Translations under genes and position numbers: made by a program
In this document: positions 1,936-59,801 of the stretch, piece by piece
How the letters are laid out: every line of letters starts with the position of its first letter
Numbering within the stretch: the first letter of the stretch is position 1
Assembly: GCF_030273315.1 (NCBI RefSeq)
Contig: NZ_CP127174.1
Span: forward strand, 2,108,001-2,172,000
Source: Natrialbaceae archaeon AArc-T1-2
GTDB lineage: Archaea; Halobacteriota; Halobacteria; Halobacteriales; Natrialbaceae
Direction: 5' to 3'
DNA: 64,000 nt
Notes under the pieces: model-generated
Seen by the model: only the letters and a program-made list of their open reading frames with translations
Told to the model about the DNA's origin: nothing
The model's database searches: none

Positions 1936-3249
1936 TCACTCGTCATCGGTGAGCAGACCGTCGACGGCGTCGAAGAGGCTGCTCGCCCCGTCTTCGACGT
2001 CGTCGATCCCGGCGTCGTCACCGTCTTCGCCCTCGTCGTCGGTGTCTTCTTCCTCGGCTTCGACGTCGTCGGCATCATCGTCTTCGGTTTCGGCGTCGTC
2101 AGTGTCTTCATCCTCGGCTTCGGCGTCGTCAGTGTCTTCACCCTCGGCTTCGGCGTCGTCAGTGTCCTCATCCTCGGATTCGGCGTCGTCAGTGTCCTCA
2201 TCCTCGGCTTCGGCGTCGGCGTCCTCACCTTCGGCTTCGCCCTCGTCTTCGTCGCCGTCGCCTCCATCGACCGTAACCCAGAAGAACGTATCCTCGAGGG
2301 CGTTTTCCCGGGTTGGTTCGGCCGGTGGATCGTCGTCGTAGAGGAGCACCACGATACGGACGGTATCGTCCGTCGCAGTCGGTGTGATCGCGCGGTCGAT
2401 CGTCATCGCTTCGCCGTCATCGACCTGGGCCGGAACCGCCTCCAGGGTGGTTCGATCGGTGACCGTCCCGTCTTCGACCGTCTGTTGTTGGACCACCACC
2501 GTGTACTCGCGAGGTTCGCCTTCGTGGTTCTCGATCCCGACGACGACCGGGATGGATTCACCCGGTTCGACGCTCGAGGGGAACTGTCCGGCTACCAGTT
2601 CTCCGTCGTCTTCGGTGTACAGACCGAGCTCCGTGAACTCGCTTGCCGACTGTGGTGAGACGAACGCCGCCGCCAGCGTCACGCCTGCAGCGACGATCGC
2701 GAGTACGAGCAGAATCGACGTCGCCGTCGCGACGGCACTCTCCCCGCGAGCGCGATAAAGCGGCCCGAGGACTGTCGTTAGTGGGACGGTAAATCGCTCG
2801 GCGACGGGGAGTCGGATGCGTCGAACGACGGCGAGCTGTGAGAAGACGATGGCGACGAACGCGAACGCGGCAGCGGCCGATTCTGCCTCCAGCCCCCACC
2901 CGGTCGCGGAGAGGACGATGCCGGCGACCGGAACGATCGCGATCGAAAGTGCGAGCGCGAGTCCGAGTCGCTCGACGACGTCGACACCGCGAGGACGCAC
3001 GTTCGTGATCGACGTCGACCGGCTCCGCCTGGACGCTCGAGGCGCTGCCGGGAACAGGACCGACACGAGTGCGTACCCGGGGAAAAACAGGATGAGCGGG
3101 ATGGCGGCGATGAACCGGAGTTCGCTGCCGGCGCCGTACGACGTCACGACGTAGTACGCGAGACCTGCCGCGAGCGATACTGCAGCGAGGTCGGTCGGGT
3201 ACCGGCGTACGGACGCCAGCCGGCTCACCGTCGTCTCTCGAAGGCTCAT
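1936..3249 (-). CDS. DUF1616-family membrane protein with acidic C-terminal repeats
   Basis: The protein has 437 residues. The first ~190 contain about four to five membrane helices with the DUF1616 look (LRFIAAIPLILFFPGYALVS near residue 45). They are followed by an extracytoplasmic beta-rich domain, about residues 200-330, with CARDB-like strands (IPVVVGIENHEGEPREYTVVV). The last ~110 residues are almost pure Asp/Glu/Ala/Thr, built of imperfect ten-residue units around DTDDAEAEDE. DUF1616 proteins occur in haloarchaeal cell-surface gene clusters, but their role is not established. The acidic tail is encoded by tandem DNA repeats (about 2030-2230) and is probably variable in length. Confidence 0.75.
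   Translation of the reverse strand: MSLRETTVSRLASVRRYPTDLAAVSLAAGLAYYVVTSYGAGSELRFIAAIPLILFFPGYALVSVLFPAAPRASRRSRSTSITNVRPRGVDVVERLGLALALSIAIVPVAGIVLSATGWGLEAESAAAAFAFVAIVFSQLAVVRRIRLPVAERFTVPLTTVLGPLYRARGESAVATATSILLVLAIVAAGVTLAAAFVSPQSASEFTELGLYTEDDGELVAGQFPSSVEPGESIPVVVGIENHEGEPREYTVVVQQQTVEDGTVTDRTTLEAVPAQVDDGEAMTIDRAITPTATDDTVRIVVLLYDDDPPAEPTRENALEDTFFWVTVDGGDGDEDEGEAEGEDADAEAEDEDTDDAESEDEDTDDAEAEGEDTDDAEAEDEDTDDAETEDDDADDVEAEEEDTDDEGEDGDDAGIDDVEDGASSLFDAVDGLLTDDE
2028..2232. repeat. Tandem ~30-bp repeats encoding the acidic tail of the DUF1616 protein
   Basis: Units containing gtcgtcagtgtcttcatcctcggcttcggc-like sequence recur about six times with small changes. They encode (D/E)DTDDAEAE on the minus strand. 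The array is inside the coding frame and keeps it open. It also opens long false reading frames on the plus strand. Confidence 0.7.
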
Positions 3250-4186: not shown

Positions 4187-4519
4187 CTACTGGCGTTCGT
4201 CGGACGAAAAGATAGTCACGTCGATCCCGTCGGCGTCGATGTCGACGCTCAAGTGATCGACGGTCGCCTCGTACGCCGTCGTGTGTGAGCCGTCCTCCTC
4301 GAACCTGATACACTCCGCGAGGAGATCGCTCTCGAGGAGATCGTTGATTCGTCGATAGACCGTCGCCGACGAACTGTCAGTTCGGTCGGTCAGCTCGGTT
4401 GCCGTCCGCGGTCGTTCGCTCGTCGCGACGAGGATGATACGTGCACAGTCGTCACCGAGCGCGTCGAGCGCGGCATTTCGAGTCGATTCCACCGTCGAGT
4501 TGTTTGCCTGTCCGGACAT
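4187..4519 (-). CDS. Small winged-helix (ArsR-like) transcriptional regulator
   Basis: The 110-residue protein carries a winged-helix domain in residues 15-75. ALDALGDDCARIILVAT is followed by PRTATELTDRTDSSSATVYRRINDLLESDLL, a typical haloarchaeal ArsR/GntR-like helix-turn-helix in which the SSSATVYRRINDL helix contacts DNA. A short beta wing (DGSHTTAYEATVDHLSVDI) and a C-terminal strand follow. No metal-binding cysteines are present, so it is unlikely to be a metal sensor. It has no close operon partner, and its regulon is unknown. Confidence 0.8.
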   Translation of the reverse strand: MSGQANNSTVESTRNAALDALGDDCARIILVATSERPRTATELTDRTDSSSATVYRRINDLLESDLLAECIRFEEDGSHTTAYEATVDHLSVDIDADGIDVTIFSSDERQ

Positions 4520-5721: not shown

Positions 5722-7062
5722 ATGCACGCCACAATCGACGCGCAAGTCACGGTTAGCATCGACTTAGACAAAACGCTACCGCTTGCCACTCTCGCTGAAT
5801 CTCTCACAGAGCTTCACCTCGAGGCGACGATCCTCGAGGAGCTTGTCAAAAGCCTCGACGAGCGCCTCGTCGAGGCGTACTGTGGGGAGAAACACGCGCG
5901 CGGAAACGGCGATCGCCGTTTCCAGCGCGCCGGAACCACAACACGAACAGCTGTGACAACCGCAGGAGAGCACGAATTTTCCCTTCATCACGTCAAAGAC
6001 ACCGCTGCCACCGGTGACGATCCTACCTACTTCCGCCCTCTCGAAGATCTCATCAAATTCGACGGGCAGCGCATCTATCAAGAGGATATTTCGCTCCAGA
6101 GTACCGAACTCGCTACGTCGCTCAGCTTTCGTGATGCCGTTGCCCACGGCGACGGCTTCACTCCGATGCCTTCGAGAACCACGATCAACCGCCGAGTCCG
6201 TGAGTACGGCAGCAAACTCGGTGACTTCGTTCGTGATCGGCTTCCTGGGACGAATGCAGACACTGTCGTTCCTGACGGAACGAAGTGTCATAGCCAGGAC
6301 GATCACTGCACGTACCACGACGTCAACGTCACTCTCGGACAGATCACCGAAGACAACGCGGAAACCACGCTCTTAGACGTCAATGTCAACGAACCGTGGG
6401 ACGATACAGCAGAAGATCTCGAAGAGAACGAGGCGATCACTGACGACGCGACGGTCGTCAGTGACGCCGAGGAATCCCTCGTCGACGCCTTCGAGACCAG
6501 CTATCGATCTCATCAGCTCGATCTCGTTCATGTCGGTCGAACGCTTGGATACAAGCTGTGGAAGGACGGTACCTTTTCGCTCAAAACGCGGAAAGCGATC
6601 GCCTCAGACGTCACAAACGACTTGTTCCATCTGAAAAACTCGGTTGCGCTCCATGCACCGAGGAATGAGCGTTTGGCGATCCGCGAGCGGATCGACCAAA
6701 CGCTCGAGAACCTCACGAAGGAGGCGTGGCGCTTAGAGCAACAGGACTCTCCAAAAGCAGCGGCGTACCTCCGAAAATGGGCACAAGCAACCGTCACATT
6801 CGCCGAACTCGCACTCGAGGGACAAGAGGTTCTGTGGACATCGAACGTGGTTGAACGAGCCATGGGCGAAATCTCGAAGCGGTGTAAAAACCAGTGGATG
6901 AGATGGACAGAGTCCGGCTTAGAATCGCTCCTCTGGCTCAATCTCGTGAGATATGCCGATTCCGAGCAGTTCGCGGCGTTCGCCGACGAACTGCTCGAGC
7001 GTTCAGCCAAAACAGCCATGACATTGGAGGTGTCAGTTGACGCTACCAGAGGCGAACTCTAG
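5722..7062 (+). CDS. ISH6-family transposase
   Basis: A 446-residue DDE-type transposase that fills the IS. It opens MHATIDAQVTVSIDLDKTLPL, followed by a helical N-terminal region with a zinc-like CGEKHARGNGDRRFQRAG segment. A central RNase-H-like fold follows: VVPDGTKCHSQDD carries a likely first catalytic Asp, VHVGRTLGYKLW lies in the middle, and WTSNVVERAMGEISKRCKNQWMRW is near the C-terminus with a likely catalytic Glu. Length and wording fit ISH6 transposases of haloarchaea. The stop codon lies within the right inverted repeat. No frameshift is seen, so it is probably active. Confidence 0.93.
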   Translation: MHATIDAQVTVSIDLDKTLPLATLAESLTELHLEATILEELVKSLDERLVEAYCGEKHARGNGDRRFQRAGTTTRTAVTTAGEHEFSLHHVKDTAATGDDPTYFRPLEDLIKFDGQRIYQEDISLQSTELATSLSFRDAVAHGDGFTPMPSRTTINRRVREYGSKLGDFVRDRLPGTNADTVVPDGTKCHSQDDHCTYHDVNVTLGQITEDNAETTLLDVNVNEPWDDTAEDLEENEAITDDATVVSDAEESLVDAFETSYRSHQLDLVHVGRTLGYKLWKDGTFSLKTRKAIASDVTNDLFHLKNSVALHAPRNERLAIRERIDQTLENLTKEAWRLEQQDSPKAAAYLRKWAQATVTFAELALEGQEVLWTSNVVERAMGEISKRCKNQWMRWTESGLESLLWLNLVRYADSEQFAAFADELLERSAKTAMTLEVSVDATRGEL

Positions 7063-7543
7063 ACGAGTTTGTGACGGGACCCAGATCTTTCACGTCCTCG
7101 GGAACGACAGGCGACGAGCGATCGTGCAACTGCTCGCAGAGCACCCCGATCACGTCGATGTCTCCGACGTCGCATCGGAGATCGCCGAACGGGAAACCGA
7201 CACGACGCCGGTTCCGAACAACCTCTATAAGAGCGTCTACGTCTCACTCCAGCAGACACATCTCCCCCAGCTCGAAGAAGACGCCATCATCGAGTACGAT
7301 CCCGAAGCGAAGACGATCCAGCCCGGCCCACACTTCGAGGACGTCCTCGAGTACGTCGACGGCGACCACGGCACCCAGGAGACCGTCCTCCAGTCGCACC
7401 TCGCACTCTGTGTGCTCGGCCTCGTGTTGATCGTCGTCTCCGGACTGGGGGTGCCGATCATCTCGAGCGTCGACCCCGTTCTGTGGGGCGTTATCGCGAT
7501 GCTCGGCGTCGCCGCGAGCAGCCTGTACAATCTGCTCGGGTGA
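7037..7543 (+). CDS. DUF7344-like winged-helix membrane protein with IS-derived N-terminus
   Basis: From QIFHVLGNDRRRAIVQLLAEH onward this is a haloarchaeal DUF7344-type protein. It has a winged helix (residues 18-100, including DVSDVASEIAERE and LYKSVYVSLQQTHLPQLEEDAIIEYD), then two C-terminal membrane helices (LALCVLGLVLIVVSGLG and PVLWGVIAMLGVAASSLYNLLG). The native first 16 codons were separated by the ISH6 insertion. The IS right end by chance supplies an in-frame TTG at 7037 and 15 codons (TLPEANSRRVCDGT), giving 168 residues, close to the native 169. Whether it is expressed depends on outward transcription from the IS. Otherwise it is a pseudogene. Such proteins are thought to be membrane-tethered regulators. 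Confidence 0.7.
   Translation: MTLPEANSRRVCDGTQIFHVLGNDRRRAIVQLLAEHPDHVDVSDVASEIAERETDTTPVPNNLYKSVYVSLQQTHLPQLEEDAIIEYDPEAKTIQPGPHFEDVLEYVDGDHGTQETVLQSHLALCVLGLVLIVVSGLGVPIISSVDPVLWGVIAMLGVAASSLYNLLG
7056..7081 (-). repeat. Right terminal inverted repeat of the ISH6 element
   Basis: The reverse complement begins GGTCCCGTCACAAACTCG and matches the left end. It contains the transposase stop codon and also the first in-frame codons of the downstream fused ORF. Confidence 0.9.
7082..7089. repeat. Right copy of 8-bp target site duplication
   Basis: CAGATCTT is identical to 5632-5639 and abuts the right inverted repeat of the IS. Confidence 0.9.
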
Positions 7544-7698: not shown

Positions 7699-9105
7699 TT
7701 AGGTTAGGGCTGCTGCCTTGTCGCCGTCGTCGCCACAGTTGGTGGTCTGCTTCTCATCGCCAGCTGGTTTGTCGTTGTCAGCCGGCTTGTCGTTGTCAGC
7801 CGGCTTGTCGTTGTCTATTGGCGCGTCGTTATCGTCCTCGTCGACTGGTGCTTCGTCGTCATCGACAGGTGGCATCTCGTCATCGTCGACAGGTGGCATC
7901 TCGTCATCGTCGACAGGTGGCATCTCGTCATCGTCGACAGGTGGCATCTCGTCATCGTCGACAGGTGGCATCTCGTCATCAACTGGCGCGTCGGGTGCAT
8001 CCTTGACGAGCACGTAGATGGTCGCCTGTTCGATCGTCACCTGGAGTCGGTCGTCGTCGACGGGTGCTTCGTCATCGACTGGTGCTTCGTCGTCGTCAGC
8101 GGGTTCCTCGTCATCATCGATTGGTGCCTCGTCATCATCGACTGGTGCTTCGTCATCGTCGACAGGTGGCATCTCGTCATCGACTGGCGCGTCGGGTGCA
8201 TCCTCGACGAGCACGTAGATGGTCGCCTGTTCGATCGTCACCTGGAGTCGGTCGTCGTCAACGGGTTCCTCGTCGTCATCGACGGGTGCCTCGTCATCGT
8301 TGACGGGTTCCTCGTCGTCATCGACGGGTGCCTCGTCATCGTTGACGGGTTCCTCGTCGTCATCGACGGGTGCCTCGTCATCGTTGACGGGTTCCTCGTC
8401 GTCATCGACGCTCACGTAGATGGTCGCCTGTTCGATCGTCACCTGGAGTCGGTCGTCGTCAACGGGTTCCTCATCGTCGTCGACAGGAGCCTCGTCGTCG
8501 TTGACGGGTTCTTCATCGTCGTCGACAGGAGCCTCGTCGTCGTTGACGGGTTCTTCATCGTCGTCGACAGGAGCCTCGTCGTCAATGGGCTCCTCTACCT
8601 CATCGAGGCCCTCGGCGATCACGAAGATGGTCGCGTAATCGAACGTTGCGTCGTGTTCGTCGTTATCGACGGCTGCCTCATCGTCGTCGTCGACAGGTGC
8701 TTCGTCATCATCGACCTCGTCGTCAGTGACTGCTTCGTCCTCTGCAGGCATCTCATCGAGATGCACGAGGATGGTCGCGTGATCGATCGTCACCTCGTGT
8801 CGATCGTCATCAACGGGTTCTTCCTCGTCGTCGACAGGGGCTTCGTCATCGTCGACTGGTGTTTCATCGTCGTCGACAGAAGCCTCGTCATCGTCGATTG
8901 GGACGATAGTCGCCTGCTCAATAGTTACGTCGACCGATACGTCTTCGTGTGTGTCAAGTACTCCTTCGGCCAGTTCTCCTGGTACGTCGTTCTCCGCGTG
9001 ATCGCTCGTACTCGAAGCCGATGGCGCTGCCGCCATCGCTGCCCCGCTCGAGAACACGAGCATCAGCGCAGTGACCACGACGAGTAGCTGATTGCGTGCG
9101 TTCAT
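7699..9105 (-). CDS. Secreted Asp/Glu-rich repeat protein with short TIEQATI beta segments
   Basis: The 468-residue protein starts with a Sec-type signal peptide (MNARNQLLVVVTALMLVFSSGAAMAAA). The mature chain alternates acidic runs, such as EAPVDDDEEPVNDD and MPPVDDDE, with six short hydrophobic segments: VTIEQATIVPI, VTIDHATILVHL, ATFDYATIFVIA, VTIEQATIYVSV and two VTIEQATIYVLV. The last three lie in 201-bp repeats. The segments show five-residue periodicity, like fragments of a pentapeptide beta-helix. There is no C-terminal anchor or sorting motif; the end is Asn/Asp/Lys-rich (DNDKPADNDKPA). A role at the cell surface, perhaps cation binding, is inference. A related protein lies at 58308-59801. 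Confidence 0.75.
   Translation of the reverse strand: MNARNQLLVVVTALMLVFSSGAAMAAAPSASSTSDHAENDVPGELAEGVLDTHEDVSVDVTIEQATIVPIDDDEASVDDDETPVDDDEAPVDDEEEPVDDDRHEVTIDHATILVHLDEMPAEDEAVTDDEVDDDEAPVDDDDEAAVDNDEHDATFDYATIFVIAEGLDEVEEPIDDEAPVDDDEEPVNDDEAPVDDDEEPVNDDEAPVDDDEEPVDDDRLQVTIEQATIYVSVDDDEEPVNDDEAPVDDDEEPVNDDEAPVDDDEEPVNDDEAPVDDDEEPVDDDRLQVTIEQATIYVLVEDAPDAPVDDEMPPVDDDEAPVDDDEAPIDDDEEPADDDEAPVDDEAPVDDDRLQVTIEQATIYVLVKDAPDAPVDDEMPPVDDDEMPPVDDDEMPPVDDDEMPPVDDDEMPPVDDDEAPVDEDDNDAPIDNDKPADNDKPADNDKPAGDEKQTTNCGDDGDKAAALT
7863..7982. repeat. 24-bp tandem repeat, five copies, inside the acidic protein gene
   Basis: The unit CGACAGGTGGCATCTCGTCA plus TCGT is repeated five times almost exactly and encodes MPPVDDDE on the minus strand. 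The near-identity at the DNA level indicates recent expansion by slippage or unequal exchange. Confidence 0.85.
8009..8580. repeat. 201-bp higher-order repeats containing 42-bp units
   Basis: The block ending atggtcgcctgttcgatcgt recurs at intervals of 201 bp (about 8018, 8219 and 8420). Between blocks lie two to three copies of a 42-bp unit encoding EPVNDDEAPVDDDE. These are repeats within repeats, all in frame on the minus strand. Confidence 0.8.
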
Positions 9106-9297
9106 GTATAGGCCGTGAAGCCATCGGTGGGTCGACGTTTCGGCGCATAAAGCGACGCAACCATTTCGAGAGAAAGCAGATAATACCCGAAAGCAACGGC
9201 CCAGTCAGTCGTCCGTTCGCCGACCGAAAACAACGATTAGATGATGGACAGTTCTGTGGGAGTGTCTACAGTCGTGACTGGATCCCGGTCGAACCTG

Positions 9298-9765
9298 TCA
9301 ATCAGTCCCGGACTCGTCGGACTTCGATGCGGCGGGTTCCTGTCCTGGAAGACAGATCAGGTTCTCACGACCCAGTCGAAGCTTCGTTATCTCGTCGTCT
9401 TCCTCGAGGTCTGCGAGCAACCGGCTCACCTTGGCTTTCGACCAGTCGACCGCGTCGACGATTTCCGACTGGCGCATTCGCCCCCCGTTTCGGCCGACGA
9501 GTTGCCGGATCCGTTCGCGATCGCTCACGAACTCCTCTTCCGGTGGCGGGCTCACGTGTGTTGTCTGCTCGTGGTCCGTCAGCCTGTTTCGAAGCACCAG
9601 GACGCTTCCGAGGAGAACGAGAATCACGATCCCGAACAGCGCAGCTACGTGCGGACCCGGATCGAGCAACCGGATCACCAACTCGTCGACGGGAGCCGCC
9701 GAAGGTGGCGTCTCGAACGCTCGAGTCGGATGCGTTCTGTGGACCGTGGATAAGAAGTTTGACAT
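9298..9765 (-). CDS. Membrane-anchored helix-turn-helix protein
   Basis: The protein has 155 residues. An N-terminal segment is followed by one membrane helix around residues 38-58 (VAALFGIVILVLLGSVLVL). A cytoplasmic winged helix covers residues 78-145: DRERIRQLVGRNGGRMRQSEIVDAVDWSKAKVSRLLADLEEDDEITKLRLGRENLICLPG. The DWSKAKVSRLLADLEE helix and following wing match the haloarchaeal DUF7343-type HTH usually found behind membrane or secreted sensor domains. A TATA-like TTTATAAA at 9831-9838 may serve this gene. It is upstream of the acidic secreted protein on the same strand, 192 bp away, so regulation of that gene is a reasonable guess. Confidence 0.8.
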   Translation of the reverse strand: MSNFLSTVHRTHPTRAFETPPSAAPVDELVIRLLDPGPHVAALFGIVILVLLGSVLVLRNRLTDHEQTTHVSPPPEEEFVSDRERIRQLVGRNGGRMRQSEIVDAVDWSKAKVSRLLADLEEDDEITKLRLGRENLICLPGQEPAASKSDESGTD

Positions 9766-29387: not shown

Positions 29388-30584
29388 CTACGGTTCCTCG
29401 AGCGCGTAAACTGACCCGTCGCCGCTACCGACGTAGACGACGCCGTCGACGACCGCCGGACTCGACGCCACCCAGTCCTCGGTCTGGTACTGCCAGCGCT
29501 CCGTGCCGGTCTCGGGCGAGAGCGCACGGACGAATCCGTCCTCGTTGCCGACGTAGACCGTTCCGTCGGCGACGGCGGGACTGCTTCGAACCTCGAGAAA
29601 ACCGCCGACGCTCCAGAACTGGGTTTCTGGGGCGGGATCGTCCGGGTCCCCGTTCGATGCGGCCGAGAGCGCGTAGAGGCTGTTGTCGAAGCTGCCGACG
29701 TAGACGACGCCGTCGACGACCGCCGGACTCGAGGTCACCGAGCCGCCGGTCTCGAACGTCCAGTGGATCTCGCCGTCGTCTACGTTGACCGCGTAGACGT
29801 GATCGTCGTTGCTGCCGACGTAGACGACGCCGTCTGCCACCGTCGGCCGGCTCTGGATCCAGTCGTCGGTCTCGATTCGCCAGACCTCCTCGCCGTCGTC
29901 GGCGTCGACCGCGTAGAGCGAACCGGCGTCGCTGCCGACGTAGACGACGCCGTCGGCTACCGCGGGCGCTCGCTGGAGGGAGCCGTCCGCCTCGAACTCC
30001 CAGCGCATCTCGCCGTCGTCGGCCGCGAGCGCGTAGAGAGTGGCGTCGTTGCTGCCGACGTAAACCGTCTCCTCGAGGACCGTCGGGCTCGAGACAACCT
30101 GATCGTCGGTCTCGAGGTGCCAGCGCTCCTCGCCCTCGTCGACGGCGTACACCGACCCATCCTCGCTGCCGACGTACACCGTGTCGTCGGCCACCGCGGG
30201 ACTGCTCGAGACCGCGCCGTTCGTTCCGAACCGCCACCGTCGATCGCCGTTCTCGGCGTCGATTGCGTAGACGCCGCCGTCGTTGCTGCCGACGTAGACT
30301 GTCTCCTCGACGACCGCGGGGCTGCTGTAGACCGAATCATCCGTCTCGAACCGCCAGCGTCGCTCGACGGCCTCGGTCGGTCCCGGCCCCGGCGCGTGGC
30401 CAGTGTTTCCGGCGTCGTACTGAAACGAGGGCCACGCGCCGCCGTCGTCGGGGTGGCTCGTGTCCACGTCCGGCTCGATCACCGCCGGCTCGTCGTTGGA
30501 GTCGCCGAGACAGCCCGTCAGCCCGACGACACAACTCGCCGCGAGGGAACCCAGCAGCGCTCGGCGTCCACGTTCGTCGACCAT
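29388..30584 (-). CDS. PQQ-type beta-propeller lipoprotein
   Basis: The 398 residues begin with a Tat/lipobox signal (RRALLGSLAASCVVGLTGCLGDS), so Cys ~26 is the lipidated residue and the protein is exported folded. The rest is built of about eight ~40-residue blades repeating VADGVVYVGSxDGxVYAVxxxxG. These are PQQ/WD-like BamB-type blades with conserved Tyr-Val-Gly and Trp-x-Phe patterns (RRWRFET, MRWEFEA, IHWTFET). There is no sign of an enzyme active site. Such cell-surface propellers probably act as scaffolds. ATG 30584 is preferred to TTG 30599. Confidence 0.85.
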   Translation of the reverse strand: MVDERGRRALLGSLAASCVVGLTGCLGDSNDEPAVIEPDVDTSHPDDGGAWPSFQYDAGNTGHAPGPGPTEAVERRWRFETDDSVYSSPAVVEETVYVGSNDGGVYAIDAENGDRRWRFGTNGAVSSSPAVADDTVYVGSEDGSVYAVDEGEERWHLETDDQVVSSPTVLEETVYVGSNDATLYALAADDGEMRWEFEADGSLQRAPAVADGVVYVGSDAGSLYAVDADDGEEVWRIETDDWIQSRPTVADGVVYVGSNDDHVYAVNVDDGEIHWTFETGGSVTSSPAVVDGVVYVGSFDNSLYALSAASNGDPDDPAPETQFWSVGGFLEVRSSPAVADGTVYVGNEDGFVRALSPETGTERWQYQTEDWVASSPAVVDGVVYVGSGDGSVYALEEP

Positions 30585-58307: not shown

Positions 58308-59801
58308 TCAGGCGAAGATTCCGATCGAGGTGAGGGTGTCGTCGTCGTTCGTCTCGTCGTCATCGACGTCGTCTTCGTCGTCATCGACGTCGTCTTCGTC
58401 GTCATCGTCGACATCGATCTCGTCCTCGAGTTCGTCAGTGTCGATCGTCATCGTCCCCACGGTCGAATCGTCGACGGTTATCGCTTCGGCGGAGACGTGT
58501 TCGGCCCGTTCTTCCTCATCGACGTCGTTCTCTTCGTCATCGACGATATCGTTCTCCTCATCGTCAGCGACGTCGTTCTCTTCGTCATCGACGACGTCGT
58601 TGTCCTCGTCGTCAGCGACGTCGTTGTCCTCGTCGTCAGCGACGTCGTTGTCCTCGTCGTCAGCGACGTCGTTGTCTTCGTCGTCAGCGACGTCGTTGTC
58701 TTCGTCATCCTCTTCGAGTGACTCGATCGTCATCGACTCGAACGTGAAGTCACCGACCTCGAACTCCTCGATCGTGAGGTGGTCGATCTCCTGCGTTTCG
58801 ACCTCGTCGTCCTCTTCGTCGACGGCGTTCTCGTCATCGACCTCGTCGTCCTCCTCGCCGATAGCGTTCTCGTCATCGACCTCGTCGTCCTCGTCATCGA
58901 CGGCGTTCTCGTCACCGTTCTCGTCTATCTCGGCATCGTCGGCCTCGTCGTTGTCGTCAATCTCGTCGTCATCGGCTTCGTCGTCGTCATCGTCGTTGAA
59001 GAGACCCTCGAAGAAGTCACCGACCGCATCGATGATGCCGTCGTTCTCCTCGATCTCGAGTTCGTCGATGGTCATCCGATCGACGTTCATCGTCTCGATC
59101 GTCAACTCCTCGATCTCGAGTTCGTCAGCGTCCTCGTCGATCAGGTCGATCTCGTCGTTATCGTTGACGTCGTTCTCCTCATCATCGACGTCGTTATCGT
59201 TGACATCGTTCTCCTCGTCATCGACGATGTCGTTCTCCTCGTCGTCAGCGACATCGTTCTCTTCGTCATCGACGACGTCGTTCTCCTCGTCGTCAACGTC
59301 GTTCTCGTCGATTTCGTCGACCTCATCCTCGTCGATCTCGAGGTCCGTCATCGAGACGTTCTCCATCTCGAGCGACTCGATCTGGACGTCAGTCAACGTC
59401 AAGTCTTCCTCGTCGTTGACGTCGTTGTCGTCGACTGCGTCGTTCTCGTCATCGACGTCGTTATCGTTGACGTCGTTGTCGTCGACGCCGTCGTCATCGA
59501 CAACGTCGTTCTCCTCGTCGTCAACGTCGTTTTCTTCGTCATCGACGTCGTTATCGTCGATCACCTCTTCTAGCTCGTCTTCGTCAACGTCCAGCTGATC
59601 GACGTTCAGCTCCTCGATCGTCGCGTTTTCGACTGTGACGTCGTCGAGATCGAGTGTTCCCACCTGTACGTTCTCTAACGTTGCGCTCGTGTCTCCGGCG
59701 TCGTCTTCGTCGGCTACTGCCGCACCGGCCAGTGCTGGCGCTGACAGTATCATGATGGCTGCAACGAAGACGGCACCGATTTGTCGTGGTCGTGAAACCA
59801 T
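58308..59801 (-). CDS. Secreted Asp/Glu-rich repeat protein with pentapeptide-like beta segments
   Basis: The 497 residues start with a signal peptide (VAAIMILSAPALAGAAVA). Five or six short segments have five-residue periodicity: VQVGTLDLDDVTVENATIEELNV, VQIESLEMENVSMTDLEI, LTIETMNVDRMTIDELEI, LTIEEFEVGDFTFESMTIES and ITVDDSTVGTMTIDT. They alternate with acidic tracts such as VDDEENDV and DVADDEDN (tandem). The hydrophobic residue in every fifth position resembles right-handed quadrilateral pentapeptide helices. No C-terminal membrane anchor. It is related in plan, not in exact sequence, to the protein at 7699-9105. A cell-surface or cation-binding role is a guess. Confidence 0.75.
   Translation of the reverse strand: MVSRPRQIGAVFVAAIMILSAPALAGAAVADEDDAGDTSATLENVQVGTLDLDDVTVENATIEELNVDQLDVDEDELEEVIDDNDVDDEENDVDDEENDVVDDDGVDDNDVNDNDVDDENDAVDDNDVNDEEDLTLTDVQIESLEMENVSMTDLEIDEDEVDEIDENDVDDEENDVVDDEENDVADDEENDIVDDEENDVNDNDVDDEENDVNDNDEIDLIDEDADELEIEELTIETMNVDRMTIDELEIEENDGIIDAVGDFFEGLFNDDDDDEADDDEIDDNDEADDAEIDENGDENAVDDEDDEVDDENAIGEEDDEVDDENAVDEEDDEVETQEIDHLTIEEFEVGDFTFESMTIESLEEDDEDNDVADDEDNDVADDEDNDVADDEDNDVADDEDNDVVDDEENDVADDEENDIVDDEENDVDEEERAEHVSAEAITVDDSTVGTMTIDTDELEDEIDVDDDDEDDVDDDEDDVDDDETNDDDTLTSIGIFA
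58556..58710. repeat. 24-bp tandem repeats in the second acidic protein gene
   Basis: The unit GACGTCGTTGTCCTCGTCGT plus CAGC recurs about five to six times with few changes and encodes DVADDEDN on the minus strand. It keeps the frame. Such arrays favour slippage and length polymorphism. Confidence 0.75.

Follow-up and report, generated by a model that had tools for sequence, protein, structure and literature searches.

The locus

The window examined here is a stretch of 64,000 nucleotides from the genome of Natrialbaceae archaeon AArc-T1-2. Close to one end it carries a minus-strand gene, with an ATG start and a single stop, between genes for two winged-helix proteins, DUF7343 upstream and DUF7344 downstream and convergent (Table 1). 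The product begins with what its sequence marks as a Sec-type signal peptide, past which a sequence scan found no further hydrophobic stretch. The mature protein of 443 residues contains 129 D, 62 E, 6 K and 4 R, so that D and E make up 43% and the net negative charge is 0.41 per residue. An earlier note on this DNA had called the protein exported and poly-acidic, and both descriptions stand. The whole protein has no curated match in Pfam, NCBIfam or PDB sequences; a weak match in PHROGs (E 3e-4, residues 233-299, function unknown) was taken as compositional.

Table 1. Positions of the acidic gene, its parts and its neighbours in the window
Feature	Description	Position	Strand	Basis or remark
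Acidic gene	exported acidic segment protein, 468 aa	7699..9105	-	orthologs at same locus
Signal peptide	residues 1-25, MNARNQLLVVVTALMLVFSSGAAMA	9031..9105	-	sequence
Segment 1	residues 58-74, VDVTIEQATIVPIDDDE	8884..8934	-	best score as family slot 2
Segment 2	residues 103-119, HEVTIDHATILVHLDEM	8749..8799	-	segment profile
Segment 3	residues 151-167, HDATFDYATIFVIAEGL	8605..8655	-	segment profile
Segment 4	residues 220-236, LQVTIEQATIYVSVDDD	8398..8448	-	segment profile, nucleotide self-comparison
Segment 5	residues 287-303, LQVTIEQATIYVLVEDA	8197..8247	-	segment profile, genome search, nucleotide self-comparison
Segment 6	residues 354-370, LQVTIEQATIYVLVKDA	7996..8046	-	50/51 nucleotides same as segment 5
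Repeat array	201-bp (67-residue) repeat with nested 42- and 24-bp repeats, in frame	7834..8580	-	TRF and self-match
DUF7343 protein	winged helix, one N-terminal TM-like stretch	9298..9765	-	upstream neighbour, conserved block
DUF7344 protein	winged helix, two C-terminal TM-like stretches	7043..7543	+	convergent downstream neighbour
TATA-like box	TTTATG	9146..9151	-	40 nt before ATG; similar position in most of 73 orthologs
Leader inverted repeat	variant, GGC-TTCACG-GCC	9111..9122	-	directly before start codon; ortholog comparison

Repeats and segments

That the gene is built of repeats within repeats was borne out. TRF reports periods of 24 bp (7832-7980), 42 bp (8050-8580) and 201 bp (7834-8580), as well as 18 and 21 bp; the 14 best self-match offsets are all multiples of 3, with 201, 42 and 21 at the top. 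The best 60-nt self-match is perfect (60/60); none of 30 codon-shuffled copies got beyond 42/60. In an ungapped comparison the identity between 201-bp units is just 50-66%. Does the array make this a phase-variable surface protein, as had been suggested? Because every repeat unit (18, 21, 24, 42 and 201 bp) is a multiple of 3, a change in copy number alters the length of the protein and not its reading frame, and phase variation finds no support here.

Six copies of a VTIEQATI-type segment are present, as the earlier note had it. They score 23-42 bits with a segment profile (consensus [IL]-[QH]-[VI]-[TS]-I-E-Q-A-T-[IV]-[FY]-V), whereas at least 10 bits was reached in only 0.5% of shuffled family proteins; in a six-frame profile search of the 3.36-Mb genome they are the top six matches. 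The uniformity claimed for the DNA repeats holds for part of the gene: segments 4-6 are near-copies (5 and 6 share 50/51 nucleotides, 4 and 5 share 45/51), and segments 1-3 have diverged (30-37/51). Segments 4-6 are recent copies of one another, and segments 1-3 are old. Composition sets the segments apart from the linkers between them: V/I/L/F/Y/M account for 46% of segment residues and 15% of linker residues, D+E for 17% and 51%. The segment is undescribed in the libraries searched (Pfam, NCBIfam and PDB sequences), in line with the earlier note, which could name no described family of this plan.

A conserved locus in the Natrialbaceae

A scan of genome contigs for relatives yielded only seven, and the locus was therefore traced by synteny, with the small DUF7343 protein as the probe for further genomes; strong DUF7343 matches (E < 1e-30) are confined to the family of the window. 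The conserved block reads DUF1616 / PadR-like / HTH / DUF7344 / acidic gene / DUF7343 / small membrane protein / epimerase / dihydroorotase, the last a putative identity read from sequence, and by Pfam names it is kept wholly or partly in 17 loci besides the window. In the window the block is interrupted, between the HTH gene (4187-4519) and the DUF7344 gene, by a Mutator-type transposase gene at 5722-7062 (+) with a weak PF00872 match below cut-off. The DUF1616 membrane protein (1936-3249, minus strand) has its own 30/90-bp in-frame acidic repeat tail at the end (2034-2247).

An acidic ORF occupies 79 of 95 sampled loci, and none was detected at the other 16. In the resulting set of 80 proteins, the window's included, 74 carry DUF7282 and 52 a CARDB-like domain, as called with home-made profiles built from Pfam-positive members (five members were checked with Pfam itself). 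The group can be defined by a position between DUF7343 and DUF7344 genes, the shared signal peptide, acidic linkers and at least one segment, and the window protein has all four; its signal peptide opens with the MNARNQLLVV..LM start that is also present in syntenic orthologs. The secreted DUF7282 proteins of Natrialbaceae are thus like it in locus, signal-peptide start, linkers and segments. Unlike them, it has no Pfam match to DUF7282 (PF23951) and no CARDB-like domain, and its segments 4-6 are homogenised. Besides the window protein, the members without DUF7282 are its genus mate L022, L035 and L045 (from one genus), L030 and a short ORF, L125; loss of the domain is the simplest reading of this distribution. 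Synteny identifies the window protein as a positional ortholog of the DUF7282 proteins, minus the domain. In five relatives (L002, L003, L013, L016 and L017) DUF7282 contains a D-T-N-D-N-x-E-F-D-like stretch that, as a sequence impression, resembles a calcium-binding loop. A literature search found no paper naming DUF7282, and nothing combining haloarchaea, pentapeptide repeats and secretion.

The whole window protein matches 32 of 125 genomes of its family, where the ORFs share its plan; named relatives include Natronococcus, Natronolimnohabitans, Natrarchaeobius and two Natrialbaceae MAGs. The 17-aa segment profile matches 61 of 392 genomes of the class, every one in Natrialbaceae. Homologues outside the strain, whose absence would have counted against the original reading of the sequence, are thus many, and the view that the protein stands alone gives way to another: the gene is the local variant of one that the Natrialbaceae conserve, as a rule with DUF7282, and its product is a domain-reduced form of a conserved secreted protein. 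Three homologues that were not found at the DUF7343 locus (L008, L009 and L011) end in a Cys-rich tail (SCSCTG, HCTC, SCSC).

The acidic gene has a conserved promoter of its own. Across 73 orthologs a TATA-like box is conserved about 40-50 nt before the ATG (CGGTTTAT in 38 of them), with a CGAAATGGTTG-like element upstream of it. In 67 of the 73 an inverted repeat, TGCC-N4-7-GGCA, immediately precedes the start codon; in ten genomes its exact 13-mer has seven occurrences, of which six are at the acidic-gene locus. Since the arms are nearly invariant there is no covariation to read; the repeat may act as DNA or as RNA.

Order of the segments and selection on them

In 16 six-segment proteins, segments in the same slot agree at 6.91 of 14 positions, against 6.10 (sd 0.05) when the order is shuffled. 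With strict leave-out, 50 of 96 segments were assigned to the right slot where 16 are expected; this supersedes an earlier leave-one-out figure (66/78) that near-identical pairs had inflated. The window protein fits the family slots poorly (two of its six segments).

Summed over six pairs of sister species, the segments have a pN of ~0.14 and a pS of ~0.35; one mis-slotted pair (L095/L099) was kept in these totals, which makes constraint look weaker, not stronger. Between the same sister species the spacings shift by up to ~30 residues, with segment number constant in four of the six pairs. The low pN together with the shifting spacings points to selection on the segments and freedom in the linkers, and argues for a linker length that varies between species.

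Neutrality would predict a pN close to pS. This bears on the idea that the gene is a fast-evolving repeat gene under weak constraint, with repeats made by slippage and segments that have no specific role. The homogenised segments 4-6 would suit such an origin, as would the 16 loci without a detected acidic ORF, but pN lies well below pS, the locus, signal peptide and promoter are conserved, and the segments are recognisable across many genera. We disfavour this explanation and regard it as highly improbable.

Five-residue phase

The earlier note had likened the rhythm of the segment to pentapeptide beta-helices. In the window the segment can be read as two pentapeptides, VTIEQ ATIYV. Syntenic orthologs have it as two, three or four in-phase pentapeptides, for example ITVEN PTIEN LNVEN VTVYV, and contain 17 runs of at least four in-phase pentads, against a mean of 0.5 (largest 2) after shuffling. 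For control periods the runs of at least four number 1 (period 4), 0 (period 6) and 2 (period 7). At a threshold of three repeats period 7 is raised too (25 against 5.7), and so only the longer runs are decisive for a five-residue phase. The rhythm is thus upheld by the runs in syntenic orthologs; the short two-pentad segments of the window taken alone give a weak signal at lag 5 (autocorrelation ~0, the null lying at -0.05 with sd 0.01).

Is this then a pentapeptide-repeat protein? That family is defined by at least eight contiguous repeats with L or F at the centre (PMC8145042). Membership of PF00805 was rejected on repeat count, there being two pentads per segment in the window and at most four counted in orthologs, and on residue set, the centre being I or V and the second position mostly T; nor does the PF00805 profile match the window protein at E up to 1. 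The likeness to PF00805 proteins, which are right-handed quadrilateral beta-helices, is one of single segments: a five-residue phase, in runs of two to four pentads whose first and third positions are hydrophobic. Unlike in those proteins, the pentad runs of the window family sit apart, between long acidic linkers. Pentapeptide-type units serve here one or two at a time, in numbers under those that define the pentapeptide-repeat family.

Predicted structure and possible mechanism

An AlphaFold model of the window protein, made from a seven-sequence alignment, places strands at 57-70, 104-115, 221-233, 286-300 and 353-367, which are five of the six segments. With a mean pLDDT of 43 and a pTM of 0.28 it gives neither the confident disorder that the earlier note would have held against its reading nor a confident fold.

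The best mechanism we can offer for the window protein, and a tentative one, is that of an unanchored extracellular "sticker-and-spacer" protein. The acidic linkers would stay soluble and extended in salt-rich brine and serve as spacers. Each beta segment, amounting to between half a coil and one coil of a pentapeptide beta-helix, would be too small to fold alone and would act as a sticker, pairing with segments of other chains or of its own. The protein could in this way be a multivalent crosslinker in a cell-surface layer or biofilm matrix, with changes in linker length tuning the spacing and selection holding the segment sequence; in the window protein the segments would do this work alone, DUF7282 and CARDB having been lost or never gained. 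Several results favour stickers: the hydrophobic make-up of the segments against the acidic linkers, the predicted strands on five of the six, and the conservation of segment codons between sister species while the spacings change. Contacts between chains are favoured by orthologs with a single four-pentad run, as one coil would hardly be a stable solenoid alone, and the copying of segments 4-6 over one another makes the slots look interchangeable. That syntenic proteins carry the surface-type domains DUF7282 and CARDB, the latter Ig-like, was counted for a surface role, and the window protein is probably a cell-surface or matrix protein. As a parallel, amyloid-like protein forms the sheaths of some archaea (PMC10593813). 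Amyloid dyes also stain the biofilm matrix of H. volcanii, where the protein behind the stain is putative (PMC4180959); as H. volcanii lies outside the family, this staining is no evidence for the window protein. Against stickers stands the conserved segment order, since stickers that were all equivalent would need no fixed order, although common descent alone can produce it; the low AlphaFold confidence was also counted against them.

Could the six segments instead fold together within one chain? They might build a monomeric core from their six half-coils, a small beta-helix of pentapeptide type (three coils) or a sheet, with the acidic linkers as long loops. Six (or five) is the usual number of segments among short-segment proteins, their order is conserved and the pentad phase is kept, and Rfr23 accommodates 24 extra residues between its coils (PMC8145042). 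However, at the threshold used 25 syntenic orthologs have one segment and 15 have three, and a single coil cannot form a core; the segment-to-segment spacings of 22-152 residues would make closure costly, and AlphaFold does not assemble the strands with confidence. We consider such a core unlikely. A soluble acidic coat or cation/water buffer, in which the segments are minor spacers, would account for the high negative charge and for linkers that vary freely yet stay acidic. The role would be comparable to that of halomucin of Haloquadratum walsbyi: this haloarchaeal protein is secreted, is proposed to hold water around the cells (PMC4378361), and has an extracellular protective role that is likewise proposed; at 927 kDa halomucin differs from the window protein, the two being compared by description. 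What is conserved, though, is the segments and not the linkers, in a gene with a conserved promoter and locus, and a mainly coat-like role also seems improbable. On another reading the segments would be short motifs for docking, each supplying a beta-strand to a partner such as a DUF7282 or CARDB domain of another surface protein; the window protein would bind, as a multivalent ligand, the DUF7282 proteins that other loci of the genome encode. Orthologs do carry DUF7282 in the same chain, and elsewhere in the genome that holds the window three reading frames yield six DUF7282 matches; on the other side, a sequence search found no solved relative of DUF7282. Docking of this kind strikes us as quite unlikely.

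Returning to stickers and spacers, a bolder form of the proposal, which we rate as rather unlikely, is that in brine, isolated half- or single coils on acidic disordered spacers join up across chains to make a hydrated beta-solenoid or cross-beta network. The product would be an archaeal extracellular matrix polymer of a new class, its solenoid fold shared among many molecules rather than held in one contiguous domain. If segments do pair between chains, the protein would be a candidate for the unidentified protein components of the surface or biofilm matrix of haloarchaea, and would offer a design from nature for a protein gel able to function in saturated salt. Whatever the mechanism, the analysis defines a conserved group of secreted proteins whose gene keeps a fixed place in the chromosomes of a large haloarchaeal family, and whose short beta segment has no counterpart in Pfam, NCBIfam or PDB sequences.

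Other repeat genes in the window

A second exported acidic protein is encoded at 58308-59801 (-). It has 497 residues and five longer pentapeptide-phase segments, one of which reads VQVGT LDLDD VTVEN ATIEE LNVDQ LDVDE, and it has no match in Pfam or NCBIfam. Relatives occur in 101 of 125 family genomes, often as adjoining gene copies. This family resembles the window protein in having a signal peptide, acidic linkers and pentapeptide-phase segments (lag-5 autocorrelation 0.38); it differs in the signal peptide itself and in segments of about five or six pentads, and the likeness does not establish a common origin. Its AlphaFold model has a mean pLDDT of 44; this model and that of the acidic gene product were kept out of fold searches because matches would mean nothing at such confidence. 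Elsewhere, at 29691-30141, a 120/240-bp tandem repeat array marks a gene that is possibly of the beta-propeller type.
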